Assembly (NCBI GenBank): GCA_947179485.1
Contig: OX359246.1
Span: 49,889,632-49,953,631 of the forward strand
From: Allacma fusca
Lineage: Eukaryota > Arthropoda > Collembola > Symphypleona > Sminthuridae
Direction: 5' to 3'
DNA length: 64,000 nt
Position numbers and translations under genes: made by a program. Every line of letters starts with the position of its first letter. The first letter of the stretch is position 1. Below are positions 121 to 59,106 of this stretch, in pieces. The notes under the pieces are model-generated. The model did not search any database, was not told the DNA's origin, and saw only the letters and a program-made list of their open reading frames with translations.

Positions 121-1322
121 TTGGCAACTGTGTGACTTATTTCACCTGATTCCAACATGGCAACTATCCCTGTCAAAAAAAGGCAAATATCTCGTCCAAA
201 AATTGGCAACTTTACTCAGTTTGGCACGTGTATGCGCACACAATTTTCAAAAAATGGCAACTATCTCATTCAAAAAGTGTCAACTTAGCCCACTTTGGCA
301 CCTATGTAGGTAATACAATTTTTTTAAATAGTGGCAACTCATCCCAGTTTGGTACGTATATACGTACAAATTGTTTTAACAAATTGGCAAGTCGTCCCAG
401 TTTGGCACGTGTATGGCCATAAAATTTCAAAAAAGTGCCACCAAATTTTTTAAAATGTGGCAACAAATCCCGCTTTGCCATATGTAGGTAAACATTTGTT
501 TTAAAAATTGGCAACTCATCCAAAATTGGCACGTGTATGACCAGTAATTTAAAAAATTATAACTAATATACTAATCGCAGTTTGGCATGTATGTAGGTAT
601 AACTTTTTTTAAAATGGCAAGTAATCTCAGTTTGGCACGTGTATGGGCATAAAATATTTAAAAAGTTGCAACTTCACCCAGTTTGGCACGTGTGTAGTAG
701 GCATGAGTATATCGAGACAGCGAATCGAGATTCTCGATATTCTCGATCTTTTTTTACCATCGAGACTAATCGAGACATCTCGATAATATATCGAGAATCT
801 TGTTAATTTTTCGTCTCGATAAAATGCGCATAGGCGTCAAAAAAGCGGATACTCTGTATAAGAATGCTGAAATCATAGAGTCTGAACAATGATGGAAAAA
901 AATTTACTGAATTCGGATGTGAACTCTTCAATGAAAAAAATATTGCTGCAGTGAATTTAAAAATAATTCGGTGAGAAAATTAATTTCATATCACATCCAA
1001 GAGGATTAGGAGAAAATTATATCGAGAGAACTACATTAATATTATAGTTTTAAATAAGTTGTGGTTTAAATGATTACGGGGACTTGCAAAATTAACCACA
1101 ATGTACATTATTGTCCCTTTATTCAATAATTTTGAGCTGTCTCGATTGTCTCGATATGACTGTGTTCTCGATGTCTCGATTTATAAAATTCTCGATCTCG
1201 ATATTTTGTTCTAAAACAAGAACAAGACTATCGAGAATTTTAAATGATTCGAGACACTCATGCCTAGTGTGTAGGTAATAATTTTTTTAAAAAAATGGCA
1301 ACTCATCCCAGTTTTTAAACTC
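121..1322. repeat. Diverged ~60-bp minisatellite, interrupted at 698-1266
   Basis: About ten degenerate units built on GGCAACTCATCCCAGTTTGG, GCACGTGTATG and a TTTTTAAAA tract, spaced roughly 55-65 bp apart. The array runs 121-697 and resumes at 1267 after an inserted TIR element. Short open frames here are repeat-derived and not coding. Confidence 0.75.
698..1266. mobile_element. hAT-like TIR element, family A (CTCGAT word)
   Basis: The ends are TAGGCATGAGT and ACTCATGCCTA, an exact inverted pair. They are flanked by perfect 8-bp target duplications GTGTGTAG at 690-697 and 1267-1274, the hallmark of hAT transposition. The 569-bp element has no transposase frame, so it is non-autonomous. CTCGAT or its complement ATCGAG occurs at least 16 times, clustered in the outer ~130 bp of each end, so the ends can fold on themselves in many registers. 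The word array probably represents subterminal transposase-binding sites, as known for plant Ac-type hATs; that role is inferred. Confidence 0.9.
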
Positions 1323-1650
1323 TACTGCATTGGCATATGAAGGGGTACTGCTTTGGCCACGCACCAAGTGCGCGGGTGCGCGAAGATTTTCCATACCCGC
1401 GATTTTTGTTCTACTTCCATGACCGCTGTATCCAAAGGTTTTCAGCTCTAACCTAGCGAGATGAAAAGTTTGGAAAAAGATTTACTAGAACTTTGGGGAA
1501 TCGAATATTTTGTACCATTCTTCCTTATACGGGGTTGCGAAAAAGTTTACTTAAATCGATTCTCGACATCCTGTACATACAAGATTAAAGCCTAACGTTC
1601 TTTAGATATCCGGATCGTAATGCATCCCGACCTACGAACATCCTGATCAC

Positions 1651-1800
1651 TAGGCATGAGCGGAACAGTATAACGAGACGAGTTCTATCTTCCATTTTTA
1701 AGCAACGATATGCCAATTTAAAAGCGATATATCGCTGTCATTGAAAACAACTGTCCATAACGGATAAAATTCTGAGCATGTATAAAATATTTTAATCAGC
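1651..1800. mobile_element. Left-end fragment of hAT-like family B
   Basis: Starts TAGGCATGAGCGGAAC and continues with the same order of motifs as the copies at 3311 and 6227 (a CGATAT-word block, then sequence similar to 6460-6510). No right end with CGCTCATGCCTA is present nearby, so the copy is truncated. Confidence 0.7.
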
Positions 1801-1894
1801 CAATATTAAGGTTCCTCACTTCATTGTCCTTGCTTACCTAATTTAATTTGAGCATAAAGAAAAACCATTCATTATCGCTCAGTTAAATTACAAG

Positions 1895-3310: not shown

Positions 3311-3942
3311 TAGGCATGAGCGGAACGATATAACGATACGATATATCGTTCCATATCGTACATTTTTAAGCAACGATATGTCACGATATTTCTCGCAATT
3401 TTAAAGCGATATATCGGTTAATTTTAATATCGTACAAAATGCTTATTTGTAGTAAAAAAGCATTTTAAAACTTAGTTTGTTTGAGCTGGCCGATGCCGAT
3501 AGTGCTCGGAAAAATTCAATTCTGAGTCGGAAAATTTCGATTCAATTCAATACGAAACTGAACCGATTGGTTCAGTTTGAATTGAACGGAATCATTTTAC
3601 TTAAATTAAATTATTGAAGTTCAAACCATCCACCGTTTACCAGCTCTCCAGTTCCTAATATGAAAAAATCCAGGGCATGACATAAGTGAAAGTATTACAG
3701 GTCTTAAAGTTCAATCTTTCAAGGAATTTGATTTTACAGGCTGTTTTAAGGAGAATAAATTACAAATATTGAATATTCTGCAAAGATACGTTAAATTTGA
3801 TAGAGTTTCATCAAAATTAGTATATTGTTTTAAATTTAATCAAATACCGATATATCGCTCATGGATATCGGTATCGTGATTTTTCTTGTTAACGATACCG
3901 ATATTAACGATATTTTAAAATTGAACGATACGCTCATGCCTA
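3311..3942. mobile_element. hAT-like TIR element, family B (CGATAT word), nested in family C
   Basis: Ends TAGGCATGAGCGGAACGATA and ...CGATACGCTCATGCCTA, with perfect 8-bp TSDs ACAACTGC at 3303-3310 and 3943-3950. Both ends carry dense CGATAT/ATATCG words. The middle (about 3500-3620) contains TTCAATTC/GAATTGAA words and a GGTTCAGTTT block. The 6227 copy has the same block, so that segment belonged to the family before these insertions. There is no coding sequence. It inserted after the family C element. Confidence 0.9.
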
Positions 3943-6226: not shown

Positions 6227-7199
6227 TAGGCATGAGCGGAACGATATAACTATACGATATATCGGTCCTTATCCTACATTTTTAAGCAACGATATGTCAC
6301 GATATTTTCCGCTATATTAAAGCGATATATCGGTTAATTTTAATATCGTACATAGGAGGTTCAATTTTCGAAAATGCCACGATGTAATCCTCTTACTACT
6401 TGTTTTGTAAATAAAGCGATCAAGGAATGTGAAACGTTAAAAATGTCACTGGAATGTCTGTGCATAACAGATAAAACTCGAGCATGTTTAAGATACTTTT
6501 CCCAATTCGGAGTTAGGACTGTAGTTATACCTACTAGCAAGCATTTTCAAATTCAGTTTGCTTAAACTAACGGATAGTCAGAAATTTTCGATTCAATTCA
6601 AGATGAAACTGAACCGATTGGTTCAGTTCATAAGTTTGAATTGAACGAAATCATTTTTCTTGAAGATTGAAGTTCAAACGATTTAACTTCATTCTGGAGT
6701 GCGCTTGGAAAATATTACCGTCTTTTCTAGAAAGTGTATTGTTAGATGTATCTGCAGAAACCGCTGGTTTTTGTTTCAGTTCAATTCAATTCAAAATTTT
6801 GAACTGAACTGAATTGAAATAATTCCGCCCTTACAGTGCATAACTTTACTACCGCACTGCAGTTACTACTAAGTTGTAATTGTACGTTTAATTGTATTTG
6901 AAATGCCTACGATGTTCCTATTAAAAAATCAGGGGGAAGTCATAATTGAATTATTACAGGTCTTATAGTTCAATCTTTCAAGGAATTAGATTTTAGAGGC
7001 TATTTTGTCCAAGAATAAATTACAAATATAGAATATACTGCGAAACTATGTTAAATTTGAAAGCATATCATCAAAATTAGTATGTTATTTTAAAAACCAA
7101 ATACGGATATAACGTTCTTGGATATCGGTATCATGAATTTTCTTTTTAACGATACCGATATTAACGATATTTTAAAATTGAACGATACGCTCATGCCTA
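6227..7199. mobile_element. hAT-like TIR element, family B, longer copy
   Basis: Ends TAGGCATGAGCGGAACGATA and CGATACGCTCATGCCTA, with perfect 8-bp TSDs AGTACTAC at 6219-6226 and 7200-7207. Length 973 bp. Outer regions are dense in CGATAT/ATATCG. The interior carries a block rich in TTCAATTC/GAACTGAA words (about 6580-6830) ending near AATTCCGCCC, which looks like a further element with its own word embedded in the family. The 63-codon frame at 6374-6565 has no recognisable domain. Confidence 0.9.
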
Positions 7200-12297: not shown

Positions 12298-14469
12298 GCC
12301 ACTTTCTAAAGCAGAGATGAAACTTTTACAAAAGGGTTTACAATTTTCTCCAACACCAAACGTGGACATATTCGTAGTAAACCAAGACTTTGAAGCATTT
12401 TTTAGAAGAATTAATATTAAATCGCATTTTCACAACAACCAATACGCAAATCCAGAACCTAAAGATGGCGTTGCGGGTATACTGGAAAACATTGTCCGTG
12501 AAAAAAGTTCTTGGAATCCACCTAAAACGGAGTACCCATCACTTGCACATTATATCGAAGAAGTTAAAACACTTGTTAATACAAAAGTGAGTTCAAAACT
12601 TAGAGTAAAATCAAATATCAGTATTGAAGAATCCAACGCTATCAAAGAACTGAAATCACGTGATGATATTGTCATTAAACATGCCGACAAAGGTGGGGCC
12701 ACGGTTGTTTGGCGAAAGGATCTGTATATTGAAGAATGTATGCGTCAGTTATCTGACCAATCGTATTACATTCCATTGACAGAAGAACCGACAATCGAAA
12801 GCCAAGACATCGTAACGGAAACAATTTCTGAAATGATTCGTAATGGACACCTTCCAAGGGAAGCAATCAATCTGAAGTACTAAGCCAAGGTGTCCGAAAT
12901 TTTACTGTCTCCCAAAAATCCATAAACCAAATAATCCAGGTAGACCAATCATCTCATCAGTAAATAGTACAACAGAATTAATTTCTTCATTTCTTGATAC
13001 TAGTTTACAACCTATACTGAAATCAACGCCGACTTATCTCAAAGATACTAATGATTTACTCAAGAAACTGGCTCAATTTAAATTTCAAGGACATGGACGA
13101 TATATTGTAATAATGGATGTAGTCGCACTATATACAAACATACCACATCAAGATATACTTACTTCCATTAAATATTTTTTGGATCAAACTCCTAATACTG
13201 ACATTCAAACTTCAGTAATAATAGTCTCACAGAACTTGTCCTTGACCTCACTGAATTTGAATTCAAATCGATGTATTTCAAACAGACCAAGGGTGTTCCA
13301 ATGGGCACTAAGATGGGCCCAGTTGTTGCTTGCTTATTCATGGCATATTTGGAGGCACAATTCAATCAGACGTATCATGGAGACCGGACTTGGATTTAAT
13401 ATATATTGATGATTTGCTCAAATTATTTTGATGCTCCAAAGACGAACTTCTTTTGTATATTCAAGAGTTTACAACTTCACATGATTCTATAAAATTTGAA
13501 TTTAAAATATATGAGACATCAGCCCCATTTCTCGATGTATTGATTATTCCGGACCAATTAAGTGACACTATTCAAACAACCATCTATACGAAGCCCACAG
13601 ATTCACACACGTATGTGTCATACTATTCATATCATCCAAAATCTACTTTGAATGCAATTCCTTATTCACAGTTTCTACGTTTAAGAAGAATATGTAGCCG
13701 AATTGATGAGTTTGAAAACCAAGCTAAAATAATGTCAACACACTTTCTTAATCGGCATTATCCCGAAAACCTTATTAAAGAAGCTATAAACAAATGCAGA
13801 TCAATTTCGAGAGAAGAATTAATTAACAAAACCAACCCACGACAAAATGTAACAACAGAACGAATTCCTTCAGTACTTAACTATTCTCCACTTGCACATG
13901 TGTTAGCCTATGATGCTATTATGCTATATAAGTCAACAATCCCTAATTCTACCGGTTCTCAAATTATTCCACTGCCACCTATGAAATATTTTCGCCGGGC
14001 CCCGAACTTAAAGCAATTACTTGTCCGCACATCAATTACCAAAACACCTATACCAACAACACCAGGCACATTTCCATGCAAAAGAGGTAAACGATGCGTC
14101 ACCTGCAAACATACTTTGAAACTATCTACGGTGACAAACTTGAAGAGGACAATACATCTCAAACAAGAATTTACATGTGAATCAAAGTCGTTGATATACG
14201 CTATTAAATGCAACAAATGCCCTGATGTAATATATATAGGGCAAACGGAAAGACATCTTGGGGATAGATTTGCGGAACACAGGAGGGATGTGTTGAATAA
14301 ACAGTATAAAAATGTTTCCCAACATTTTAATCTAACTGGACATAGTGTGGATGATATACTAGTTACTGGATTGAAGTACGCTTCAAGAGATGAAAAAGTC
14401 AGAATTGAAACCGAAAACCGAATGATCCATTTCTTCAATTCTAATGCATTACCTGGACTAAACATCTAA
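12298..14469 (+). pseudogene. Penelope-like element copy 1 (RT plus GIY-YIG), broken
   Basis: Penelope-like elements are retrotransposons with a telomerase-related reverse transcriptase and a GIY-YIG endonuclease. Here 12317-12883 encodes the N-terminal part, including the HADKGGATVVW block. The frame ends at a stop created by a local rewrite (12874-12884) just before PKFYCLPKIHKP. It resumes with DVVALYTNIPHQDI (13113-), then frameshifts where KGVPMGTKMGP should be read, and the YIDD active site near 13405 is in yet another frame. 13453-14469 reads through a cysteine motif (CKRGKRCVTC) to a GIY-YIG domain (YIGQTERHLGDRFAEHRRD). The 5' end is lost in the gap. Confidence 0.9.
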
Positions 14470-14963
14470 TTTGCATATTAAGGAAACATCGAAACCTCAG
14501 GACGAAAGTTCGACGGGTGTGGCAATCCCGGGGTTATCTTAGCCAAATTTTTTTAAATAGCTTAACTAATTCATATTTTTAAAAAAATAGTTTATTATGA
14601 TTATTTTAAATAATCGAAAAATCAATAATTTCAATTTTTCAATTTTTATTGATTGTAGTATGCATTATATTGAATGTTACTACTAGTATATCATTTGCCT
14701 GCAAAGAGTAAAAGCTCGAAACGTTGCTGCGAATAAAATATAAGCCTTGTGTTAAAAAGTGAACTTCTACCCTTATTTAATATATTATATATATTTCACT
14801 TCGCGTCTTTAACTAAGTAAAACTGTTTCAATAGCCTCCCTGATAGCTCGTTTTCTGTGTTGCGTCTTCTAAAAACATATTTAAGATCAACCATGACAGA
14901 GAAGACTGGCGTACGTCTACAAGTACGGGTTATCAATGATTGAAAAAATCATTGAGGATTTTG
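14470..14963. other. Penelope 3' untranslated region and tail
   Basis: AT-rich 3' region of the Penelope-like copy. Apart from the hammerhead-like motif it holds a GGACGAAAGTTC hairpin soon after the stop codon and a short palindrome TCAATGATT/AATCATTGA near 14932-14955. The end of the element is not sharply defined. Confidence 0.5.
14697..14740 (+). ncRNA. Degenerate hammerhead-ribozyme-like motif, Penelope 3' region, copy 1
   Basis: CCTGCAAAGAG, a TAAAAG loop, then CTCGAAACGTTGCTGCG. GAG pairs with CTC as stem II and GAAAC gives the invariant GAAA, but the CUGANGA core reads CTGCAAA with two changes. Penelope-like elements are known to carry hammerhead motifs in their terminal repeats, which makes the assignment plausible. 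Catalysis is doubtful with these substitutions. Confidence 0.45.
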
Positions 14964-15566
14964 CAGGGGTCGGAGTTTTGTAGGAAGACTTGAAGCTTCT
15001 TTTCATGGAACTAATTTTTTGGGCAGGGAACAAAGGGAACGGATTTGTTTGTACGTACAGGGATTTTTAAATTCGTTGACCTTTTCTTGGCAGGAATTTT
15101 CAAATATTTTGGCGTGGTTCAGTGAAATTGTTTATTCAAACGGGATTTTTAGATTCGTTGACCTAATTTGGCAATGAATTTGAAGTCTTGTACAGAAATT
15201 ATTTTTGCCAACAGGGAAACTCCAAAACAACAGGAAGATATAGAAAAATCCGATTCCTGGGATTTTGCAAGGAGCAAATCCATTTTTGGAAATCTCCCTG
15301 AAGATCATTTCAAAAATCCCTGCTGAAAAAAGGTCAAAAATTTCTAGTCTAGGAAGACGTCAACTTAGGTCAACTTATATAAAAATCCCTGTTTGCGTAA
15401 CAAATTTCCCTGAAACAACGCAACAATTTTGAAAATTGCTGCCAAAAAAGGTCAGTGATTTTTAAAATCCCTGTTAAAAATAAATCTCTCCCCGTTGATA
15501 TTTCCCTGCCAGAAATATTTTTCCCTGGGAAGAATGTTCCCGTCTTCCAAAAAAATACGACCCCTG
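14964..15566. mobile_element. hAT-like TIR element, family G (AGGGATTTTT word), copy 1
   Basis: Ends CAGGGGTCGGAGTTTTGTAG and, reversed, CAGGGGTCGTATTTTTTTGG, with GAAGAC/GTCTTCC just inside both. The interior is crowded with CAGGGATTTTT/AAAAATCCCTG and TTCGTTGACC words. No TSD is visible, because the non-LTR element starts within a few bases of its right end. Confidence 0.75.
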
Positions 15567-15568
15567 TA

Positions 15569-17160
15569 ATTCATTCTACTCCTGGACAAGGTCCAGGCAG
15601 GTTCTCTATTGAGCCTACTTGTACCCCTCTGTCCAGTGCAGTGCTTTTTTCTCCTTCCCCGTCCTTATACTCCCTATCCTCACAGTGTAAGTGTTTGACG
15701 TTCTCACTTATTATTGCTTAGCCATTGTTTTGGCTTCTCATACATGTGCCCTTTGTCAAACAAAAATTAGAACTAGGGCTTTGTTTCTGAAATGTTATGG
15801 CTGCAAACTATTATATCACCGTACCTGTGTGAAACTAAGCCTAAAAACATACAGATTTATAAATCTGGACCTGTGGTCTTGTGTTTCCTGTGTGAGTACA
15901 ACAGAAACAGTCGCTGACAGTATTCTACCAAATGAGGCTTTTACGGAATGTTGTTTGCCCTCACATGTTCCTACTACACAGGATTCACTCTCACCAGGGC
16001 AAACTGGTAAATTTTTTCTACCTAAATATCAACAATTTTGCAGTACATAAATTTGAAGAGCTAAAAACTCTTGTCTGTAACCAAAGGCTTGATTTTATTG
16101 CCCTTAACGAAACTATCTTTAATGATGACACAAACGTTGGTATTTATAATATTCCCGGATATAGTATTGTCACTAAAAAACGTAGCCACAAGAAGGGAGG
16201 TGGCTTACTATTTTATCTACATAACCGACTTAGATATAAAGTTATAGAACTAAATGTTGATATTTTTAATTCGGATGTGGAACTTCTAGCTTGTAAAGTT
16301 GGCCTAACAGAATTTCAGTCTTTAGTTAGTGATACTAATCTATAAACCTCCAAAAAGTTCTATTGCGAATTTTTTATTATTTATTGGCGGTTTGCTACAA
16401 TAAACACGTAAATATAAACAAAGATGTATAATTTTTGGGGATGTAAACATTGACTTGTCTAATATGTCAGGTGATGCTATTAAGTTATTAACATGTCTAC
16501 GTATGTATGAATATAAGCAAACAGTGAATTTTCAAACTAGAAGGGTATTTGGCAAGCGACATTCTAGTTCGCTAATTGATCATTTGTATATCCCTATAAA
16601 TTTGACAATTGAATGGAACTGCAATGTCTCTGGTCTGTCCGACCACGATGCTGTTGCATTTAAATATAGTTTTAAAAAACCAGATGCACATAGTGGCAAA
16701 GAAGTATTGTCACGAAATATTGACGGTATGGATTGGGAGGGTTTTAACGCAGAATTATGCAAAATTAATTAGGACTTCCTTGTTAGTTCTAAGTACAATA
16801 TTGATTTTGTTTATAATGTGATAAGTACAACGGTACAAGTGTTACTTGACCAGTATGCTCCAATTCGTAGAAAACGTGTCAAGAACTCAACTCAATCTTG
16901 GGTTAACTCTAACATACGCAGTCTCATTCTAATGAGAGATACATTTAAAAAGCAGGCAGGTTTAGAAAGGTCATCTACATTGTGGACTACGTATAAGTAT
17001 TACCGTGCCAGAGTTAAACATGAAATCGATGAAGCTAAAAGAGTGTATTTTAATAATGAACTGTTCCTAAACAACACGAGCCAGGGTATTTGGAAGGTGA
17101 TTGATAAGCTACGTGGTAAAGAGAGGAACCCTGGGATGCAAATTGACGCACTGAATGTTA
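15569..17160 (+). pseudogene. Non-LTR retrotransposon, 5' half only (copy 1)
   Basis: The 5' region (15569-15690) resembles the start of the copy at 54163. 15691-16050 encodes a PHD-like zinc finger: CALC, then CYGC, HRTC and CVSC spacing. 16000-16345 gives the start of an APE-type endonuclease (FYLNINNF, ALNET, KKGGGLLFYL), then a frame break. 16455-16772 carries the endonuclease C-terminus with RRVFGKRHSSSLIDHLYIP and GLSDHD. 16818-17160 begins the region before the RT. The copy stops at the duplication breakpoint, so the RT is missing. The architecture resembles the CR1/L2/Rex group, but the clade is not certain. Confidence 0.85.
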
Positions 17161-17548: not shown

Positions 17549-19722
17549 GCCACTTTCTAAAGCAGAGATGAAACTTTTACAAAAGGGTTTACAATTTTCT
17601 CCAACACCAAACGTGGACATATTCGTAGTAAACCAAGACTTTGAAGCATTTTTTAGAAGAATTAATATTAAATCGCATTTTCACAACAACCAATACGCAA
17701 ATCCAGAACCTAAAGATGGCGTTGCGGGTATACTGGAAAACATTGTCCGTGAAAAAAGTTCTTGGAATCCACCTAAAACGGAGTACCCATCACTTGCACA
17801 TTATATCGAAGAAGTTAAAACACTTGTTAATACAAAAGTGAGTTCAAAACTTAGAGTAAAATCAAATATCAGTATTGAAGAATCCAACGCTATCAAAGAA
17901 CTGAAATCACGTGATGATATTGTCATTAAACATGCCGACAAAGGTGGGGCCACGGTTGTTTGGCGAAAGGATCTGTATATTGAAGAATGTATGCGTCAGT
18001 TATCTGACCAATCGTATTACATTCCATTGACAGAAGAACCGACAATCGAAAGCCAAGACATCGTAACGGAAACAATTTCTGAAATGATTCGTAATGGACA
18101 CCTTCCAAGGGAAGCAATCAATCTGATTAGCAAGAAGCCAAGGTGTCCGAAATTTTACTGTCTCCCAAAAATCCATAAACCAAATAATCCAGGTAGACCA
18201 ATCATCTCATCAGTAAATAGTACAACAGAATTAATTTCTTCATTTCTTGATACTAGTTTACAACCTATACTGAAATCAACGCCGACTTATCTCAAAGATA
18301 CTAATGATTTACTCAAGAAACTGGCTCAATTTAAATTTCAAGGACATGGACGATATATTGTAATAATGGATGTAGTCGCACTATATACAAACATACCACA
18401 TCAAGATATACTTACTTCCATTAAATATTTTTTGGATCAAACTCCTAATACTGACATTCAAACTTCAGTAATAATAGTCTCACAGAACTTGTCCTTGACC
18501 TCACTGAATTTGAATTCAAATCGATGTATTTCAAACAGACCAAGGGTGTTCCAATGGGCACTAAGATGGGCCCAGTTGTTGCTTGCTTATTCATGGCATA
18601 TTTGGAGGCACAATTCAATCAGACGTATCATGGAGACCGGACTTGGATTTAATATATATTGATGATTTGCTCAAATTATTTTGATGCTCCAAAGACGAAC
18701 TTCTTTTGTATATTCAAGAGTTTACAACTTCACATGATTCTATAAAATTTGAATTTAAAATATATGAGACATCAGCCCCATTTCTCGATGTATTGATTAT
18801 TCCGGACCAATTAAGTGACACTATTCAAACAACCATCTATACGAAGCCCACAGATTCACACACGTATGTGTCATACTATTCATATCATCCAAAATCTACT
18901 TTGAATGCAATTCCTTATTCACAGTTTCTACGTTTAAGAAGAATATGTAGCCGAATTGATGAGTTTGAAAACCAAGCTAAAATAATGTCAACACACTTTC
19001 TTAATCGGCATTATCCCGAAAACCTTATTAAAGAAGCTATAAACAAATGCAGATCAATTTCGAGAGAAGAATTAATTAACAAAACCAACCCACGACAAAA
19101 TGTAACAACAGAACGAATTCCTTCAGTACTTAACTATTCTCCACTTGCACATGTGTTAGCCTATGATGCTATTATGCTATATAAGTCAACAATCCCTAAT
19201 TCTACCGGTTCTCAAATTATTCCACTGCCACCTATGAAATATTTTCGCCGGGCCCCGAACTTAAAGCAATTACTTGTCCGCACATCAATTACCAAAACAC
19301 CTATACCAACAACACCAGGCACATTTCCATGCAAAAGAGGTAAACGATGCGTCACCTGCAAACATACTTTGAAACTATCTACGGTGACAAACTTGAAGAG
19401 GACAATACATCTCAAACAAGAATTTACATGTGAATCAAAGTCGTTGATATACGCTATTAAATGCAACAAATGCCCTGATGTAATATATATAGGGCAAACG
19501 GAAAGACATCTTGGGGATAGATTTGCGGAACACAGGAGGGATGTGTTGAATAAACAGTATAAAAATGTTTCCCAACATTTTAATCTAACTGGACATAGTG
19601 TGGATGATATACTAGTTACTGGATTGAAGTACGCTTCAAGAGATGAAAAAGTCAGAATTGAAACCGAAAACCGAATGATCCATTTCTTCAATTCTAATGC
19701 ATTACCTGGACTAAACATCTAA
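17385..19722 (+). pseudogene. Penelope-like element copy 2 (RT plus GIY-YIG), frameshifted
   Basis: The first frame, 17385-18662 (425 codons), runs through HADKGGATVVW, PKFYCLPKIHKPNNPGRPI and DVVALYTNIPHQDI, then leaves the RT frame near 18470. In the next frame KGVPMGTKMGPVVACLFMAY can be read, up to a stop near the catalytic site. YIDDLLKLF then lies in the third frame near 18655. The second long frame, 18706-19722 (338 codons), carries the linker, a cysteine motif and the GIY-YIG nuclease (IYAIKCNKCPDVIYIGQT, EHRRD, and a distal ENRMI that may supply the glutamate). At least two frameshifts make it inactive, but it preserves the upstream part that copy 1 loses. Confidence 0.92.
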
Positions 19723-19949
19723 TTTGCATATTAAGGAAACATCGAAACCTCAGGACGAAAGTTCGACGGGTGTGGCAATCCCGGGGTTATCTTAGCCAAA
19801 TTTTTTTAAATAGCTTAACTAATTCATATTTTTAAAAAAATAGTTTATTATGATTATTTTAAATAATCGAAAAATCAATAATTTCAATTTTTCAATTTTT
19901 ATTGATTGTAGTATGCATTATATTGAATGTTACTACTAGTATATCATTT

Positions 19950-19993
19950 GCCTGCAAAGAGTAAAAGCTCGAAACGTTGCTGCGAATAAAATA
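19950..19993 (+). ncRNA. Degenerate hammerhead-like motif, copy 2
   Basis: Identical to the motif in copy 1 (offset 5253): CTGCAAA core, GAG/CTC stem, GAAAC. The same caveats apply. Confidence 0.45.
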
Positions 19994-20216
19994 TAAGCCT
20001 TGTGTTAAAAAGTGAACTTCTACCCTTATTTAATATATTATATATATTTCACTTCGCGTCTTTAACTAAGTAAAACTGTTTCAATAGCCTCCCTGATAGC
20101 TCGTTTTCTGTGTTGCGTCTTCTAAAAACATATTTAAGATCAACCATGACAGAGAAGACTGGCGTACGTCTACAAGTACGGGTTATCAATGATTGAAAAA
20201 ATCATTGAGGATTTTG

Positions 20217-20819
20217 CAGGGGTCGGAGTTTTGTAGGAAGACTTGAAGCTTCTTTTCATGGAACTAATTTTTTGGGCAGGGAACAAAGGGAACGGATTTG
20301 TTTGTACGTACAGGGATTTTTAAATTCGTTGACCTTTTCTTGGCAGGAATTTTCAAATATTTTGGCGTGGTTCAGTGAAATTGTTTATTCAAACGGGATT
20401 TTTAGATTCGTTGACCTAATTTGGCAATGAATTTGAAGTCTTGTACAGAAATTATTTTTGCCAACAGGGAAACTCCAAAACAACAGGAAGATATAGAAAA
20501 ATCCGATTCCTGGGATTTTGCAAGGAGCAAATCCATTTTTGGAAATCTCCCTGAAGATCATTTCAAAAATCCCTGCTGAAAAAAGGTCAAAAATTTCTAG
20601 TCTAGGAAGACGTCAACTTAGGTCAACTTATATAAAAATCCCTGTTTGCGTAACAAATTTCCCTGAAACAACGCAACAATTTTGAAAATTGCTGCCAAAA
20701 AAGGTCAGTGATTTTTAAAATCCCTGTTAAAAATAAATCTCTCCCCGTTGATATTTCCCTGCCAGAAATATTTTTCCCTGGGAAGAATGTTCCCGTCTTC
20801 CAAAAAAATACGACCCCTG
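20217..20819. mobile_element. hAT-like TIR element, family G, copy 2
   Basis: Duplicate of 14964-15566 at the constant 5253-bp offset. It was copied by the segmental duplication, not inserted independently. Confidence 0.75.
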
Positions 20820-20821
20820 TA

Positions 20822-25136: not shown

Positions 25137-25990
25137 ATGACATTCTAGTAAATCATATTTCCTGTTTTTATTTAGTTGTCTGCCGATATAAGATATTCCA
25201 GTTGAATCTTTAGGAAACAAAAATACACAAGTAAGACGTTTGCAGCGTTATAGTTCTAAGAGGTTTATAGAAAAATGATTGCACACTTATTATGACAGAA
25301 ATTCTACAATGGTGTTCCACTCTAGTTACTAACTCTTCTACAAGTTTTAAACTACTATCTTATCATGTCATTGAGTCGTTTAGAATTAGTAAATAATTAA
25401 CTCTATTGCCTTGGGATATAAACTCAAAGTTCAGACCCCGTTTAAATTGTATAGGTATATTAACATTGTGTTTTAAAAATTTAAATAGTTCAGGTTAAAG
25501 TTCAAAGTAATTATTCTTTCAATACGCGGAACAAAAATCTCATCTTGCCTGATAATTATGTTGGTAATTAATGTTGATTCATTAATGCAATTACAGGCAC
25601 CTAAGCTAACAAATATATTATTAATAATGATACTGAATGTAAATATTATATAATTAACATATTTTATTACCTGAAATAATTGTTGCTGTGTACTTAAATG
25701 TAGTCAAAATCTTAATGCTCAAAAGTGGACATATTAATGTCGAGTGTATCCAGGCACGTAGCAAGGGGGCAATTGCCCCCCCCCCATTCGAAATAAAATA
25801 CTCTCAAATCACTCAAAATGTTAAAAATAAATCAGTCCATACCGAGACCTTTTTAGTGATTTGACAGTGCAATTTTTTTTATTTGTAAAAAAAATCACTT
25901 CGAAACTCAACATATGCAGTATTCCATGTAAATATCTGTGTATAAACAGCATAACTCTAGAATCACCCATGAAATTTGCATGTTTCGTGT
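25137..25990. other. No gene; CAGGCACGTAGC repeat end at 25751
   Basis: AT-rich sequence. At 25751 a CAGGCACGTAGCAAGGGGG start with a GGGGGCAATTGCCCCC palindrome matches the repeat ends at 11665 and 49764. Confidence 0.55.
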
Positions 25991-38689: not shown

Positions 38690-41243
38690 TCAGCAAGTTT
38701 TACTTCCATAGCCTTGCAAATATTCTGTTCGGATTTCCACATTATTTTCATGTGACTCCACCACAAGCCCATTTTGGAAGCCATAGGACTCCATAATAAT
38801 TTCCCTTGGAGCTGGTGGTGGAGGAATTTCATTTGGAGCTGGAGATACATAGTCTTCGTTAGGGCTCCTTACAATTTCAACTAGTAATTGCAACTATCAA
38901 TTTCAAATATAATTTCAATTCAATTTCAATTGATGATAATTTGCAAGTTGTAAATTGAAATCAATTTCAAATAAAACTTTTTAGTTGTTGATTCAATTTC
39001 AATTACAAATCAACTATCAATTTAGGCATTATAATTGGGAACTTTCACAATTTCAATTTCAAATAGCTGCGTTGCCAAAAATTGATAGTTGAAGTTGATA
39101 ATTGACAACTAGTAAATGTTAAGGCAAGCATGCGCGCAAAGGCAGAAATGTGTAATCAAAGCGCGGAGATTACTCAACTTCCCAAAGAAAATGACACATT
39201 AATGTGCTGCTCATTTCTTCTAATACAAAAGCAACGAAACACTGAAAAAGTAACTCCAATCCAAACCTAATGGGGAACCACCAAATACCGAATCTGAAAA
39301 TCTGTTTGATATTCAAATGAACAGATGTAAATACGATTCCAGGGACAAATTCGATCGATATCATTCAGAGCACCATACAAAATTTACAGACCTGAAAATG
39401 GAGTTCTTAGTTTGCAGTTGGAAGGTTTTTAATTTGAAAACATGGGCAATGGTTTTTATTTTCATAACCGCGTTATGAAAAAATGCATTACATGTTTTAA
39501 TTAAACTGCTTCTCCTATTTTTTCCAGGATGGCATGAGATGTTCGGTGAGCTACTGCTACTTGAATCCTGTAAAATGCTTGTTTTTCACTGCTAATGACC
39601 TATTTGATCTCAAACAGGATTTCCGTGCTTGCTGTGACTACTAAAAATTTTGTCTTTGCCAAAAATGCTACTTCAAGTTGAGAATGTTTGAAGCAAAAAT
39701 CTGTTGTTGTCAACAGGATAGTTGTTGGGGATGGTTAAAATTGTTAATTATAATTTTACAACCTGAATGAGTTTAGTATAATTTCATAGCAAACAAAATG
39801 ACCAGATGTAGCTAACACTATTTTAGTCGAATTTATTTTCATAACCAGTTTTTCTTTTGGTACACACGGGTAAGAATGTAAACCAAAAAACCAATTTCAT
39901 TTCAATTTCAATTCAATTTAATTCCAATTACAAATCAATTTCAACTTGCGCAAGTTTTAAAAGTTGTAATTCACAAATCAACTATTTACGTTGCTGCTTG
40001 ATTAACATAAATTGATTATTTTTCTAGTATTTGATTGACAAATAATCAACTACAAATTACCACTACAAATTGAATTGAAAATTCAATTTCAATTAAAAAT
40101 ACAATTTCAACTAGCTCAATAAATTGAGTTGTGAGGAGCCCTAGTCTTCGTCAGGAGTCGAAGGATTGGTCGAGTCTGGAGACCAGGTAGAAGATAGAGA
40201 GTAGTCCGGTTCCACAGATCGGAAGTCGTCAAAGGATTCCATCTGCAAGTAAGTGAAACAAAACAAATTAATTTTTGGAATAGGCTTACGACTACTACGT
40301 CTAGGAGTAAAGTAAAAGATGAGGTTATGGAGTATTTACAAGATACTCTTTACAAGATAGGATTTTAGTGGTTCAGGAGAAGCAAAAGATTCCGAAAAAT
40401 CTAACGTAGGATCCGAAGGAGGATATGGTTGATTAGTTTTTAGCAAGGGAAATTTGGGTTCTCGCTTCTTAAAGAAGATAATTTTATAGGAACTTGGTGG
40501 TGGAGCTAAATCGCGTTGAATGAACTGTTTTAAATGTTAGTTAAATCTAACCTGAAGTGTACTTATGAGAACCTTTTTCCCCGCACGTATTTTCTCCTCA
40601 ACTACGAGTCTCTTTACCATGCCACAAGCAACGACACTGAAAATATGCATGAGGATTATATATTAGCTTTCTAAAGAGAACAAACACAAAAAATCAGGCT
40701 TGATTCTATGAAAAGCATGCGAATATATAGATGGAATGGATTCTCGAAGTAAATCATCTTTGAAGATAAAAGTTCCAGCTTCAACAAATTTATTGAAAAT
40801 TGGAATTTGTGTCAAATAGAGGTTTTCAATAGAATCCATTAAATTAATAACGTGATTTTTGTCCCAACGCCTAATCTTCTACAGCCTCATTTCAGGAATT
40901 CCGTAGGTCTGCCTTGAATTACCGTCAATAGTCTCACCATCTTGGATGGTAGTATGCACGCAGTGCTGTAGAGCATTAATTTTGTCTAGCATTATTTTAT
41001 GATCTTTTTTTTGTGTATAGGAGTTTTGCAAGATAATTTCAGTAAAAGGTTGCCAATTGGTTGTACATTAAAAAGTATAGGATTTGGTGGGTTTTGTGAC
41101 GATTCGTAAATCATTATGCTCACGAGGAATATTAGATAACACTTACTTCCACTTTGACTCCCGGAAGGTTTGTCTGAACACTCATCTTTTACTTGACAAA
41201 TACTCGTTCTCAGGCCAATTGAGATTGAATATTCGTTAGTCAT
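38690..41243 (-). pseudogene. Unidentified decayed minus-strand gene, split by a TIR element
   Basis: ATG at 41243 opens a short exon ending in GTAAGT near 41140. An acceptor near 41003 would join in frame to sequence starting HKIMLDKINALQHCVHTTIQ, continuing with KIRRWDKNHVINLMDSIENL and FIFKDDLLRESIPSIYSHAF. The same frame carries stops at 40879, 40663, 40537 and 40336. Some could lie in small introns, but 40879 interrupts good coding sequence. Further on it reads DLAPPPSSYKIIFFKKREP, MESFDDFRSVEPDYSLSST, then the inserted element (38860-40143), and finally YVSPAPNEIPPPPAPREI to a stop at 38690. Proline-rich and acidic segments are obvious. I do not recognise the family. Confidence 0.55.
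38860..40143. mobile_element. hAT-like TIR element, family F (CAATTTC word), inserted in a coding exon
   Basis: Ends TAGGGCTCCTTACAATTTC and, reversed, TAGGGCTCCTCACAACTC. Perfect 8-bp TSDs GTCTTCGT lie at 38852-38859 and 40144-40151. Both ends (about 250 bp each) are saturated with CAATTTCAA/TTGAAATTG and related words. The 1284-bp element has no transposase; the short minus frame at 39170-39364 is unrecognised. Removing the element and one TSD restores an uninterrupted minus-strand reading frame across the site. Confidence 0.92.
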
Positions 41244-41630: not shown

Positions 41631-44600
41631 ATTTCCCCGTCAATCCCTTAATCCAATTCAAGTTGTCAGAATTTCCCCCTTAATCCCATAATCTAATTCA
41701 AGTTGTCAGAACTTCAAAATAATCCCTTAATCCAATTCAAGTTGTCAGAATTTCCCCCTCAATCCCTTAATCCGATCCAAGTTGTCAGAATTTCCCCCAC
41801 AATCCCTTAATCCAATTCAAGTTGTCAGAATTTCAAAATAATCCCTTCATCCAATTCAAGTTGTCCGAATTTCCCCCTCAATCCCTTAATCCGATCCAAG
41901 TTGTCAGAATTTCCCCCACAATCCCTTAATCCAATTCAAGTTGTCAGACTTTCAAAATAATCCCTTCATCCAATTCAAGTTGTCCGAATTTCCCCCTCAA
42001 TCCCTTAATTGAATTCAAGTTGTCCGAATTTCCCGCTCAATACCTTAATCCAATTCAAGTTGTCCGAATTTCCCCTTCAAACCCTTAATTCAATTCAAGT
42101 TGTCAGAATTTCCCCCGCAATCCCTTAATCCAATTCAAGTTGTCAGAATTTCCCGCTCAATACCTTAATCCGATTCAAGTTGTCAGAATTTCCCCCTAAA
42201 TCCCTTAATCCGATTCAAGTTGTCGGAAGTTTGTCATTTAATCCGTTAATCTGAGCCAAGTGATCTCAATTTTGTCATTGAATCCGTTATTCCAATCCAA
42301 GTGCTCGGAATTTTATCATTTAATCCGATAATCCAAGCCAAGTAATCGTAGTTTTGTCATTTAATTCGTTAATCCAAGCCAAGTAATCGTAGTTTTGTCA
42401 TTTAATCCGTTAATCCGAGCCAATTGATCGGAATTTTGTCATTTAATCCGTTAATCTAAGCCAAGTGATCGGAATATTGTCATTTAATCCGTTAAGCCAA
42501 GCCTAAGCATGAGATCGGTTCGGTTCAACGCGGTTATCCGACCATCGGTTAACCGAATCCGACGGTTCGGATCGAAGATTCGTAACCGAATTTAAATAAC
42601 CGAACGGTTCGGATACGTCAATGTCTAACCGGATATCGGTTTCGGATCGGTTCGGTTTTAAGTATGAATTTATCTGTTCGGTTAAACCGACGGATAACCG
42701 ATTTTTAATTTTTTTCTAAACTTTTTAGCAAATCGTAATCGAGAACGACTGTAGCATGAATTTCTCGAGACAGACGGTTGTTTCATTATGTATCTGCAAT
42801 ATATTTAGAAAGCACATCGCATGGACCACGGGCAATCATACATTTGTTCATCTCATCGCAATTATTTCTCACACCACTATTTAATTTTTAGCTTAAATTA
42901 AATAAGTGCCTTATTCAGATTCAGATTTAAGATTCAGATTTTATTTTAATACGGATTCTTTTCGGGCGGCGCCCACATGATCCAAACACAGCATAGTATT
43001 ACTAATGAGAAAGAACAATTAGCCTAAAGATTTGCAAGGAAATTATTCCTGGCAATAAAATTATGAATAAACTTAAATATATCACATTTGAGATCCTTGG
43101 AGGGGTTTCTAAGAAGTGATAGAAGAGATATCTCTGAGTGACATCATGTAATGTGGTATTTCTGCAGAAGTGAATAAGTGCCTTCATTACTACAACTAAT
43201 ATGTCATCAATGGAAACCTCCGACTCCATAATAAAAGCAGAAACTACACGGCAAAATGGGCCTTCAAAAAAACGATGAGAAGCGAGTTCTGGAAACATTT
43301 TGGTCTTACTAGAGGTTTAGTCCTTAGATTTTTAGTTGTCATTTGAAATCAAATAATGGGTAGAATTTGATAAAAATTAGTTTAATACATAATTGCTTTA
43401 AGTTTAAACAACATCTTTATTAAAACAAAGATTTTTAAAAAAAATTAATAAATATATCTGTTTCGAAAGAAGTTTTTATTGGTAAAATGTGCAACATTGT
43501 TTCGGTTATTCGGATAACCGACAAACGGTTCGGTTATAAAAATCATCCGAACCGATTTTTGGCGGTTCGGTTTCGGATACGAATATTTTTTTATCCGAAC
43601 AAAACGGTTCGGTTCGGATTTGAATAAAAAAATAACCGATAACTTCGGTTCGGTTCGGTTACGGTTCGGATTTATGTTTTATCCGAACCGATCTCATTCT
43701 TAGCCAAGCCAAGTGATCGGAATTTTGTCATTTGGTTCGTTAATCCAATCCAAGTGATTGGAATTTTGTCATTTAATCCGTTAATCCAAGCCAAGTGATC
43801 GGAATTTTGTCATTTAATCCGTTAATCCAAGCCAAGTGATCGTAATTTTGTCATTTTATCCGTTAATCCAAGCCAAGTGATCGGAATTTTGTCATTTGGT
43901 TCGTTAATCCAAGCCAAGTGATTGGAATTTTGTCATTTAATTCGTTAATCCGAGCCAAGTGATCAAAATTTTGTCATTCAATCCGTTATTCCAATCGAAG
44001 TGATCGGAATTTTGTCATTTAATCCGTTATTCCAATCCAAGTGATCGGAATTTTGTCATTGAATCCGTTAATCCAAGCCAAATGATCGGTATTTAGTCAT
44101 TTAATCCGTTAATCCAAGCCAAGTGATCGGAATATTGTCATTTAATCCGTTAAACCAAGCCAAGTGATCGGAATTTTGTCATTTGGTTCGTTAATCCAAG
44201 CCAAGTGATCGGAATTCTGTCTTTAATCCGTTAATCCAAGCCAAGTGATCGGAATTTTGTCATTTAATCCGGTAATCCAAGCCAAGTGATCGTAATTTTG
44301 TCATTTAATCCGTTAATCCAAGCCAAGTGATCGGAATTTTGTCATTTAATCCGTTAATCCAAGCCAAGTGATCGTAATGTTGTCATTTTATCCGTTAATC
44401 CAAGCCAAGTGATCGGAATTTTGTCATTTGGTTCGTTAATACAAGCCAAGTGATTGCAATTTTGTCATTTAATTCGTCAATCCGAGCCAAGTGATCAAAA
44501 TTTTGTCATTCAATCCGTTATTCCAATCCAAGTGATCGGAATTTTGTCATTTAATCCGTTAATCCAATCCAGGTGATCGGAATTTTGTCATTTGGTTCGT

Positions 44601-48827: not shown

Positions 48828-49071
48828 GTACCCACATTTGCAGGTATTAGTTTGTCAGGTCCAGGTATATTGAAAGCTTGTACCTGTCTCTGTAGGGTAC
48901 AACCCAAAAAATCAAAATTTGTACCTGTACCCAAAATTTGGGTACATATAGCTAGTACCCATAAAGTACCCATTCAGTTTGGGTACTTAAACAGAGTACC
49001 CATTTCGGACCTGGACCTGTACCTGTGCCCAAATACTCAGGTACTACCCGTACCCATGCGATGCACTACTG
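48828..49071. mobile_element. hAT-like TIR element end, family J (GTACCC word)
   Basis: The right end, read in reverse, is CAGTAGTGCATCGCATGGGT, a typical hAT-style terminus. GTACCC/GGGTAC or GTACCTG/CAGGTAC words occur about fifteen times in 240 bp. The left part is missing. The family C element at 48009 inserted into one of the GTACCC words. Confidence 0.7.
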
Positions 49072-49763: not shown

Positions 49764-51469
49764 CAGGCGCGTAGCCAGGAATTGGCCAAGGGGGGCAACA
49801 TTAATTAGAACGTACATATGTAAACTGACACATTCTATGGGAAATCCAATTCACGAATTTAAAACACTTCAAATTTTGCAAACTGAATTTCAGATTTTAA
49901 AATTCTCCACGTTTTACGATTCCATCAAATTTGAATAATTTTGGACCAGATTTTTAATTGGGCTTGATCCGATTTCGGAGAATTTCGAGACCTGGGTTCG
50001 CTTCTATCGTTTCAGCTGGTGCTTAACCTACTGTTCCTGTGACACAAGTCTTTGCTTCGAAAAGAAACTGCGGATATCAGGCGTGCTTGACCTTTTCATA
50101 ATGAAGAATTAAATACAATTCACTAATTTAATAATTCTATCCAGCTTAAAAATTCCCTCGAATTGAAGCGTGTAAGTTACAGAAGCTAAAAGCTTTTAAT
50201 ATGAAAATATTTAAAGCCGCTGTTACCATACTTTTGTTGCCGTTGAAGGTTGAAGTCAAATCGACGAGGCAAAGGTCAAATGCTGCCCTAGTCTAGTCAG
50301 ACTTGACTAGGAAAGTTTACACTTGATTAGACTAGGAGCCAAAATGCATGTAAAAGAATAGACTTGACTGGACTACGCATGCTGTTAATATTTTGAGACT
50401 TGACTAGAATAGACTACGGAAACTTTCGAAAACACAGGATTTGACTAGACTTGACTTGCATGACTTCATGGAAAAGCTAGTCAAGTTACAATTACTTGAG
50501 GCTCCCTCATTTACTGAAAATCAAAAGAAATCCAGCGTGAAATTCCGGTGTACACCAAACGCTCATCGTAAGGGACGGTTAGTGTGCTTAAGTATAAAAT
50601 TTCGTTTTGAAGATCAAAACAAGATATTGTCCCCTGAGTCATTTGTCTAGAAAAATCTAATCTTTTCAGTTACAATTTATTCTTACATTCCAGTAAAACA
50701 ATCATTTCAAGTAGTTTACATTACAACACATTAAAAGACCGTGATTAAGCGCTGTTGGCAAACGTCCTACCAATGCCCTGCCCATGACCAACGTTTGATC
50801 CGTAGATGGCGGCTGGGATTTAGTCCTGCATGAAGTTAATTCATTTAACTATTGAAAATCTCCTTAAATTAATGTAGGTAGTAAATATTGAGTTTGTAGG
50901 CACTACAAACCGCAAATTTGATGCCGTCTCCTCTGGGTTCGGGCAGTCGGACATCTGAAAGTTTGATTTTTTTTGAAAGTTTCACAGGGGGACCCTTCCT
51001 CGCTTGAATTTTTTCATGTTAAATCCCATAAGAAAAATCCATTTTCGCAACTTGTTCGCAAGAGACATCAAGTTTTCGATTTGTGTGAACACTATTAGTA
51101 GTGCCTACAATTCCACCAATTTTCATTTAATTCTGAAGTTCACATCGGAAGACTTTGCTTGTCAGTGGAATCACCGTCTCCTCTTTCTTTTTCTCGCAAT
51201 ACAAACCCGCTCTCTCTGTCTCGCCCTTTGTCGCAAAACAAACCCGATCTCGGTTTCTCAATGAAATCTCGCTCTCTCGCACGGTCTTTCTCGCTAATAC
51301 AAACCCGGTTTCCTACTCGTTTAAGCAGAACTGCCAAAAATCCTATGAGAACCACAGAATGGTATCCTAATTGGCTGGCACCGTGTGATAACCTGTCCCT
51401 TCGTGGCTTAACACGTATTGCTGATCCAAAAAGATTTTGTGTATTTTACGTTTCAAGTAATTATGCATT
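49764..51469. other. No intact gene; repeat ends and the TTGACTAG-word element
   Basis: CAGGCGCGTAGCCAGGAATT at 49764 is the same repeat end as at 11665. 50282-50470 is the TTGACTAG-word element listed separately. Between 51170 and 51310, CTCGC and AATACAAACCCG phrases recur. Open frames at 50441, 51004 and 51159 have no recognisable domain. Confidence 0.45.
50282..50470. mobile_element. TIR-like element with TTGACTAG word (family K)
   Basis: GCTGCCCTAGTCTAGTCAGA at the left, then TTGACTAG, TAGACTAG, TTGACTGGACTA and related words about ten times, ending TTGACTAGACTTGACTTGC. Termini and TSD are not defined. The word saturation matches the other hAT-like families in the window. Confidence 0.5.
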
Positions 51470-52345: not shown

Positions 52346-52371
52346 GTAATTTGTATTTGGGGAGCATGTAT

Positions 52372-52529
52372 TTTGAACAGCTAACTTGAACGTCAAGTTG
52401 TTATCAAGTTGAACACTCAAGTCCCTTGAAAAATTTGATTCAACAAGTTCAAGTGTGGAAACTTTGTTTAGACAATTTTTCAAGTTCAAGTCAAGTTGTC
52501 TAATATAATTTGACTTGAACGCAGCTCTG
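52372..52529. mobile_element. hAT-like TIR element end, family I (TTCAAG word)
   Basis: Read in reverse from 52529 the end is CAGAGCTGCGTTCAAGTCAA, a hAT-type CAGAGCTG terminus. AACTTGAA, TTCAAG and CAAGTT words recur about fifteen times. The 36-bp minisatellite lies directly inside it, so it may be part of the element. The left end is not found. Confidence 0.6.
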
Positions 52530-55307: not shown

Positions 55308-55438
55308 CTCATCGTAACCTAAAAGAAATAGACTGGGTTGCATTCAATACAGAAATATGTAAGATTAATTGGGAATTTCTTTTAAATCCTAAATATGACA
55401 TAGATTTTGTATTCAATGTTATATCTACTACAATTCGT

Positions 55439-57454: not shown

Positions 57455-57837
57455 TTATATAAGAATGGCTCTGACCAATGATTTGTGATCTTAATTTATT
57501 TACTGTACTAAATTCTTACGAAAATTATTCTGACCCGGCTTGTGAAATATGTTTGTATTCATAAACTAACTTGGACCTGTAATGTCTGGGGTGAAAACCA
57601 ATACTTGTATTGACTCCTTTGACATTGAAATAAAGCACATTATTATTATTATTATTATTAGGTTTTAGTCAAAACGTCTAGAAATCGTTTGCATTGCAGC
57701 AGGACATCAAAAATGCGAATACACCAATAGACAGATCATGCCAAGAAAATACAGATGGAGCTCGCTGAACATACACGGTGCATACATACCTAAATCTCCC
57801 GGCCTTTTATACGTACTCGTACACACAGTATTCACAG

Positions 57838-58870
57838 CAATTTTGATATAAATCAATGATTTATATCGAAAAAATCAATGATTTATATCGAAAAAATCAA
57901 TGATTTATATCGAAAAAATCAATGATTTATATCGAAAAAATCAATGATTTATATCGAAAACATCAAGTGATTTAAATCCAGCTACCGTGGCTCTAATTAT
58001 TGTAAGTATTTTAAAACTAAATAGCTGATTTTTTAAAGTTTACAGCCGTTCGCTTCAAAATTCGATATTATATTTGTATTGTTTTTTAATAAAGACTGAC
58101 AAATCGTAGAAGACCCGCCCAGCATTTTAATATTCTTCAGGTATGTATACTTACTGTATGCGTATGTATAACCAGGGTCGCCAGGGTGCTCAGGTCCCTT
58201 TTAGCGAGTTTCGAAAGCGGGGCCTCCGCGCTACTTGGGTTGATCTTTAAGTGCTGGTTTTTTAACCTTCAACATTCTGCTCCGTTAGTCCAAGTGTAGC
58301 ATAAATGCTCGATTTACTCCTATTCCAAATATGAATTAATTTAAAGCAGGGATTTACACGTGATTCGCTTTAAAAATAATTAGCGCTCAAAAAAATGAGC
58401 ACGATGATGGAGAATATATTTATCACCTTCAGTTTAGATCTTACTGGATGAAAATATCATATGTTAATGAAAATTTAACTTGTTGGGACACCTCATTGAA
58501 GACCTATTAACACGATTTGAGCGAATGTTGAGGGGTGTACATTGTATGTACAGGCTGGGACGTTGTTTTTACTTACTTTGTTTCTCTGAAACATCACGTT
58601 ACATTTTTCTCCTGTAAGAAGACATTTTCGGAGAATACAAATGTTCAGTCATGGCAACTTATTTTTTCCGAGTTATTTGACCTCAAGGTTGTCACTTTTG
58701 TATTCGAAAAGTTTTCAAAATGACAACTCAAGTCCTAAATACTTGTTTGGATTGAAAATAGTTTTGTTTCATATCTTTATTTAGTGAATTGTAATTGTAC
58801 CCCGAATAATGTAAATACACATCGGTTAGGCTTCGTCCTCATAGATTGTCAATGATTTGCATCTAGATCA
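57838..58870. repeat. Left arm of a ~1.03-kb inverted repeat
   Basis: Nearly identical to the reverse complement of 62854-63885; only two substitutions were noticed (near 57961 and 58040), with at most a 1-bp length difference. The outer edge consists of a palindromic stretch (57845-57867) and five 22-bp tandem units of ATCAATGATTTATATCG plus AAAAA. The inner edge coincides with the start of a CAGAGCTGC element at 58870. The 62-codon open frame (58535-58723) appears in both arms and is not recognised. Confidence 0.95.
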
Positions 58871-59106
58871 GAGCTGCTTGCAGGTATCAGGTAATACCTG
58901 AAAAATACCCGTCGGGTCGGGTTCGGGTCGGGTTCGGGTCAGCTACAAAAAAAGTACCTGAGATTCGGGTCAAGTGCGGGTACATCCAGGATCCGCACCT
59001 GATATTACAGGTCGGGTTAGGATCAAGTTCGGGTTTAAAAAATATACCTGAGCTCAATGTCAGGTACAGGTTCGGTACGACGAATTCAAAATACCTGAAC
59101 CCGAAC
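58870..59106. mobile_element. hAT-like TIR element, family H (GGGTTCGGGT/ACCTG words), cut by the gap
   Basis: Begins CAGAGCTGCTTGCAGGTATC right after ATCTAGAT (58862-58869), which would be its left target duplication. TCGGGT, GGGTTCGGGT, TACCTGA and CAGGT words fill the 237 bp. The right end is not seen; sequence after the gap is unrelated. The start CAGAGCTGC is shared with family I. Confidence 0.65.

Follow-up and report, generated by a model that had tools for sequence, protein, structure and literature searches.

Subterminal repeats placed haphazardly in both ends are a defining feature of hAT transposons according to a passage of PMC4890040, which gives 17 and 18 repeat copies for Tgf2. 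Tol2 carries the palindrome AAGTACTT behind its terminal inverted repeat (TIR) in the excerpt of PMC10368747. The same excerpt reports that the BED finger of the Hermes transposase binds AAGT repeats, that AAGT/AAGC occur in both orientations, and that residues 63-67 and 70, which immediately precede the zinc histidine, contact the bases. A passage of PMC8721813 describes a T2/A7 bias in Hermes targets. Ac/Ds has an 11-bp TIR, an 8-bp target site duplication (TSD), and transposase-bound AAACGG repeats in ~200 bp of each end, and its non-autonomous copies carry deletions or filler (PMC3260210, excerpt). Here we describe the hAT-type elements in a 64-kb stretch of the Allacma fusca genome (contig OX359246.1; the whole stretch is called the window) and their relatives in the 392.7 Mb (91 contigs) of the genome searched. 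Our data make it probable that an element end consists of a TIR and an array of a family-specific word, that the words are predicted BED sites inherited with the transposase, and that many such lineages exist side by side.

The window elements are of a known kind, because subterminal repeats define hAT and Ac, Hermes, and Tol2 provide precedents. As far as the excerpts describe them, Tol2 and Tgf2 share with the window elements subterminal repeats at both ends in haphazard placement, but their words are different, whereas this genome has many word families and most of the window copies lack a transposase. Ac/Ds of maize differs in its words and host, and its repeats are bound by the transposase, whereas binding of those described here is predicted. 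Hermes of the housefly resembles the elements of this genome in its BED finger, its two-orientation repeats, and its T2/A7 target bias, but the words and the residues at the contact positions differ. T2 or A7 occupied 29 of the 52 positions in 26 TSDs (p = 0.0003 against 0.32), a set that leaves out the 7/8 cases, one-sided ends, and locus L007.

Elements were located by searching the window for short inverted repeats bounded by 8-bp direct repeats. Perfect 8-bp TSDs were recovered for five forward-strand elements: A (698..1266; a 569-bp hAT miniature inverted-repeat transposable element (MITE); TSD GTGTGTAG), C1 (3024..4755; TIR TAGGGATGCC; TSD ATATGTAC), B1 (3311..3942; 632 bp; TSD ACAACTGC), B2 (6227..7199; 973 bp; TSD AGTACTAC), and F (38860..40143; 1284 bp; TIR TAGGGCTCCT; TSD GTCTTCGT). 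C2 (48009..48827, reverse strand) has the 7/8 match GTACCCAG/GTACCCAC, and D (42504..43702, forward strand; 1199 bp; TIR TAAGCATGAG, 9/10) has GCCAAGCC on either side of the element, within a 41-bp satellite. These results reproduce the six duplicated targets, five perfect and one 7/8, and the D match of the initial annotation. A strict search for a perfect 8-bp TSD plus a 12-bp TIR with at most one mismatch gave seven matches in the window versus an average of 0.03 across 30 Markov copies; the seven are five elements, one cross-pair between the B copies, and one match within an inverted repeat. TSD lengths of 5, 7, 9, and 10 gave 0 matches in the window, a length of 6 gave 10 matches that all lie inside the 58-63 kb inverted repeat, and lengths of 2-4 were uninformative (18-206 matches). 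B1 is nested within C1, and C2 is the same site without B1, with a single CAACTGC copy. C2 is itself inserted in J, and locus L008 carries J sequence without C2 in a comparison by eye (BLAST aligned the right-hand side only). Because the nested insertions have duplicated targets, there is little doubt that the window elements are transposons.

TIRs were found for A, B, C, D, and F, and three further families are known from one end only. The right end of J (48828..49068, reverse strand; tip TAGTGCATCGC; word GTACCC/GGGTAC) stops at 49068 and not at 49071 as initially annotated. The right end of I lies at 52361..52529 (reverse strand; tip CAGAGCTGC; word ACTTGAA/TTCAAG). The left end of H (58869..59106, forward strand) starts at 58869 and not 58870, with its tip CAGAGCTGC following ATCTAGAT, and contains TACCTGA on both strands and CGGGT on one. 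The right end of H is lost in an N gap, and no left end of I or J was found in the window. Tips are common to families with different words: A and B both have TAGGCATGAG and D has TAAGCATGAG, and H and I both have CAGAGCTGC.

The named words were compared with 500 dinucleotide shuffles of each segment. No shuffle reached the observed count (0/500) in A (ATCGAGA/TCTCGAT), both ends of B1 and the left end of B2 (CGATAT/ATATCG), the left end of a degraded B copy (1651..1730, end approximate, forward strand; identified by its tip and BLAST to B1/B2), both ends of D (CGGTTCGG/AACCGA, with some CGGATA), the left end of F (CAATTTC, one-stranded), H (both words), I, J, the K cluster, and tandem array L. 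Shuffles were as good in 4/500 cases at B2-right and at F-right and in 9/500 and 15/500 at the ends of G, and the C words are weak (0 to 42/500, depending on word and end). A blind test that took the best among all 6-mers (200 shuffles, 23 segments) found 15 segments without any equally good shuffle. Its results were weak for B1-right (6/200), B2-right (11), C1-left (16), C2-right (21), F-right (3), and G-left (44), and it found no word in the degraded B copy or C2-left. Subterminal repeats at both ends are clear in A, B, D, and F and weak in C. The word-by-family matrix is close to diagonal, except that A and C also contain the B word. Nearly all words sit within 150 bp of the tip in A, B, and C, within 200 bp in D, and within 300 bp in F. 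A blind scan for clustered 6-mers found 21 regions in the window. Clusters at element ends use both strands, and most tandem arrays use one; two-stranded arrays are also present at 2.0 kb (45-bp unit) and at 57.8 and 63.7 kb (22-bp units). The initial annotation had each end filled over its outer part by a word and its reverse complement; this describes 150-300 bp of most ends, mostly on two strands, but C is weak and F CAATTTC and H ACCCGA are one-stranded.

The two ends of an element share little besides the tip and the word. In the seven two-ended elements, 9-10 of the first 10 bp match between left and right, and identity beyond 50 bp, compared position by position, is 21-39%. Local alignment of left and right ends beyond 20 bp scored above all 200 shuffles in A, slightly above them in D, and strongly above them in G, and did not exceed them in B1, B2, C1, or F. 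Because of these alignment results, we conclude that, G excepted, both ends are filled by one word without a long common sequence.

Transposase-bearing elements show the same organization. PF05699 (hAT dimerisation) has 860 candidate places in the genome, and all 150 that were scored lie above the cut-off. The 32 stretches of ~5 kb around PF05699 matches (L039-L070) were hand-picked by long frames or profile range and are not random. The detector found an element around the match in 16 of 30 stretches, with five false positives in 350 Markov copies of 14 loci. One call, at the L065 match, was dropped (AT-rich TIR/tip, no word), and L043 (TSD TACTCCGC, one degraded tip) and L069 were added, which gave 17 bounded elements in the 32 stretches. 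The end word exceeds all 100 shuffles in each of the 17, the same word occupies both ends, and 11 words occur in total. They are CGGATA (L044, L043, L049), AACCGA/CGGTTC (L050, L055, L045), CGAGTA (L058, L063), GATTCA (L059), CGATTC (L062), CAATTC (L068), CAAGTC (L060), CAGTTC (L064), GTTTCA (L066), GGACCA (L067, and the second word of L069 behind CTGTTC), and CACTAC (L040). L059, L062, and L068 have parts of one word pool in common. None of 1426 interior segment pairs reached a score of 15. The pooled word density in successive 50-bp bins is 52, 47, 36, 30, and 31 per kb as far as 250 bp from the tip, drops to 2.9, 0.6, and 0.3 per kb past 250 bp, and is 0.53 per kb beyond 600 bp. The words were chosen from the outer 200 bp, which biases the density there upward; the 200-250 bp bin and the later drop are unbiased.

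We take the words to be functional because the same dense word fills both ends and its density steps down at 250 bp. Local slippage, by which the words would be functionless by-products of minisatellite growth, is disfavoured and very unlikely. Tandem repeats are called at the F and H ends and at array L, and the F and H words are one-stranded, as slippage would have it; the mixed orientation in most families, the same word in two ends that do not align beyond the tip, and the sharp drop at 250 bp all speak against it. A second possibility is that hairpin or cruciform structure matters and not the word itself. All 10 ends that were folded are more stable than the shuffle average (z -2.45 to -4.96; 0-4/200 shuffles as good), but this extra stability is expected because words on both strands produce hairpins anyway, and the arrangement is not common to both ends of an element. 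We give the structural explanation very little credence.

A third explanation applies to A, B, and C, whose words could be bound by a putative host CGATA-binding protein of the BEAF/DREF type, the elements acting as insulator- or promoter-like sites. Of the 13 CGATA clusters in the window (at least three in 200 bp), 11 coincide with ends of A, B, or C, and tandem array L is mixed into one of these 11 (1706-2208). CGATA clusters at BEAF/DREF sites resemble the B words and partly those of A and C, and B has two clusters plus a spacer, like the BEAF dual-cores in the excerpt of PMC2605929. The BED domain is named after BEAF and DREF (PMC3606216, excerpt). BEAF and DREF, unlike the window elements, are regulatory proteins of the host. 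The window has no copy of the DREF site TATCGATA, and the main words of the remaining families differ from CGATA. Binding by a host protein is very unlikely.

The organization that we favour is one in which each end has a TIR of ~10-16 bp followed by an array, up to ~250 bp deep, of the family word, whose copies usually point in both directions. In the most likely reading, the matching transposase would bind these words through its N-terminal BED finger. The many sites would gather an oligomer of the transposase and select the ends to be used, and the catalytic part of the protein would handle the tip. The genome would hold many element/transposase lineages in parallel, and the words would pass on with the transposase, sometimes unchanged despite protein divergence and sometimes shifting by at least one letter; the order of these changes is our conjecture.

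The similarity of the words was compared with that of the transposases using the cosine of end 5-mer spectra, protein identity, and a Mantel test with 5000 permutations. The correlation was r = 0.83 (p = 0.0002) for 13 proteins, a set with the near-duplicates L043/L044, L050/L055, and L067/L069, and r = 0.71 (p = 0.0006) for 10 representatives. The L044 and L049 proteins are 57% identical and keep the word CGGATA (cosine 0.91). In contrast, L062 and L066 are 60% identical and their words differ (cosine 0.07). L044 and L055 (54% identical) have CGGAT:CGGTT ratios of 26:1 versus 12:24, and the window element D has 14:31, which indicates two word pools. The ratios in L048 and L053, with one end read of each, are 17:0 and 18:0. 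Ends were alignable beyond block-permuted controls for L044/L049, L062/L068, and one end of L059/L062; by the same controls, those of L062/L066 are barely or not alignable and those of L044/L055 are not.

Some of the word changes look like one-letter shifts, such as CGGAT to CGGTT, or among CAATTC, CAGTTC, and CGATTC. A tentative proposal, one with a real chance of holding, is that the genome contains a graded recognition series with single-letter word steps, in which ends are rewritten word by word within the 250-bp domain and the mixed D-type ends represent a stage between two specificities of a single BED finger. The initial annotation proposed many transposase/word pairs with ends rewritten for each new DNA-binding specificity. 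The 11 words over 17 elements bear out the diversity, many copies have words above their shuffled controls, and no single autonomous element accounts for all the families. The rewriting is partly supported, as some lineages allow it and others contradict it: the word is kept in L044/L049 and differs in L062/L066.

Several observations weigh against BED-site words that change with their transposases. A positive correlation between words and transposases is also expected from plain descent alone, and the L044/L049 ends are still partly alignable. These points, together with the retention of the word at 57% protein identity in that pair, suit an alternative, somewhat doubtful in our estimation, in which old unrelated families inherit words and transposases jointly and the words are transposase sites with no co-adaptive rewriting; the different words of L062/L066, the two pools in D-type ends, and the unalignable ends of L044/L055 do not fit joint inheritance alone. 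Words are no better conserved than their surroundings between copies (19/182 versus 34/326 changed in B1/B2 and C1/C2, p = 1.0). The F word CAATTTC (8:0) and the H word ACCCGA (0:8) are one-stranded (binomial p = 0.008 each), although the H word TACCTGA has a strand ratio of 3:2. The L040 word is weak, with a ratio of 6:1. No accepted element was obtained from 15 of the 32 stretches, and 9 of 760 flank pairs also reached the score of 15, where flanks can contain other such ends. Finally, several BED matches fall short of the Pfam cut-off, and no BED-to-word rule emerged, the residues that match the Hermes contact positions varying when aligned by eye.

The BED fingers themselves were identified to different degrees. 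Pfam zf-BED matches above the cut-off were found in L039 (2e-06) and L041 (1.9e-07). The L044 match comes in two pieces, one above (0.0002) and one below (0.033) the cut-off, that look as if they were split by an intron. The second BED half was found in L049 (0.0029, below the cut-off), and both halves were found by similarity in L055. Pfam did not find zf-BED in the main frames of L059, L062, L066, and L068, and the starts of these frames resemble the second BED half by eye. A simple residue-to-word rule was considered: immediately ahead of the first zinc histidine, L044 and L049 (CGGATA) have Y and L055 (CGGTTC) has N. This rule was ruled out by L048, which also has N and keeps CGGAT.

Two window families could be linked to transposases. 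L050 is a 1839-bp element (TSD GATCCTGG) with a 356-aa frame that matches PF05699, and the D ends are 94% identical to it over 206 and 180 bp. Alignments of L055 (3569 bp, TSD ATCTTGTT) with the D ends have 84% identity across 439 columns and 78% across 402. The L055 and L050 proteins are 96% identical over 351 aa, and a stop interrupts the L055 frame. The shared TIR, word, and end sequence mark D as a short relative of a transposase-bearing element, and the corresponding word/transposase pairing is well supported. L060 (3845 bp, TSD TGTATGAT, word CAAGTC) has the tip CAGAGCTGTTTTCAAGTC, compared with CAGAGCTGCGTTCAAGTC in I. A blastn comparison of I with L060 gave no longer match, and I and L070 share a 51-bp match at 80%. 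I is likely paired with an L060-type transposase, judging by tip and word. The F tip agrees with the L058/L063 tips at 10 of 12 positions, but the word differs. No transposase-bearing copy of A, B, C, F, H, or J was present among the fetched loci. Pfam detected no hAT transposase in the 30 window frames scanned, out of 199 frames of at least 60 aa outside the arrays and the duplicate. The window holds mostly non-autonomous hAT elements.

A co-change of transposase and site is hard to observe, since one change in the protein would weaken all its sites simultaneously. This genome has 11 end words, several of them on full-length copies that bear a transposase, and related transposases keep the word (L044/L049), differ in it (L062/L066), or carry two pools, which opens the BED recognition code to direct comparison. 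Such a code would be of wider importance than for transposons, since animals use hAT-derived BED proteins as host regulators. Six TIR strings were searched in the literature, and no transposon title appeared among the matches listed. Among the papers listed in the literature search, none set the word families of a whole genome against the identity of its transposases.

Copies of the window families are spread through the genome. A has 224 candidate places; 40 were scored, with identities of 93-100%. Eight copies were fetched, of which seven have identical 8-bp flanks and one (L002) has differing flanks; the tip of L007 has a mismatch. L005 and L006 have the same flank and nearly all sequence in common and may be a single insertion. 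D has 446 candidate places, and the matched pieces of the 40 scored are 82-100% identical. With two exceptions, one of them the window copy, the pieces listed end at about query position 412 or begin at about 670 or later, which indicates that most D copies are without the ~412-670 stretch. Relatives of J (78%) and H (92% over 239 bp) are present in L008 and L042, respectively. A search of a phage collection gave no match to A, and searches of viral contigs with the B, A, and H tip patterns and the LINE protein gave no result. At L004:1176-2750, ATCCGA clusters lie on both sides of an A copy, and a remnant of a hAT transposase is beside it; the copy is probably nested in an older hAT.

The initial annotation had assigned hAT end words to four further families, none of which was established as a hAT end. 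G (14964..15566, forward strand; TIR CAGGGGTCG) is a 603-bp imperfect palindrome, a foldback for which no TSD was found, and its hAT membership is putative. Its second copy (20217..20819 by an offset of 5253, forward strand) was rejected as an independent insertion, because it belongs to a 4.87-kb tandem duplication (12298-17160 and 17549-22413, 99.9% identical) that starts at an N gap. The duplication contains a GIY-YIG/reverse-transcriptase-like frame pair and may be an assembly duplication. K (50282..50506, forward strand) is a cluster of CTAGTCAAG-type words that exceeds its shuffles, and no TIR or TSD was found for it in the window. L (GGAATTC) was rejected as an element end and is a 45-bp tandem repeat at 1984-2133. 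The M word GGGAAC forms no cluster of at least four in the window.

Besides the elements, the window contains LINE-type reverse transcriptase frames, a GIY-YIG frame (below the cut-off), two N gaps, and several tandem arrays. The interiors of B1 (3515-3710) and B2 (6576-6822) contain words of the TTCAGTTCAATT type in both orientations, which may be left over from another family. A MITE-like 280-bp imperfect palindrome, 75% self-complementary, lies at 25954-26233. A 1032-nt inverted repeat (57838-58869 and 62854-63885, 99.8-100% identical) has 22-bp tandem repeats containing ATATCG at its outer ends, and its left arm stops at ATCTAGAT, where H begins. The hAT transposase loci L024, L026, and L031 share a tip with one mismatch to the H/I tip, adjoining TTGAACTT and ~800 bp from the dimerisation domain. 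A 1349-bp element at L065:3644-4992 (TIR CAGTGCTCGGCACGGGTA, TSD GTACTAAC) has 11 and 12 copies of CGGGTA at its two ends, a word that resembles those of H and J.

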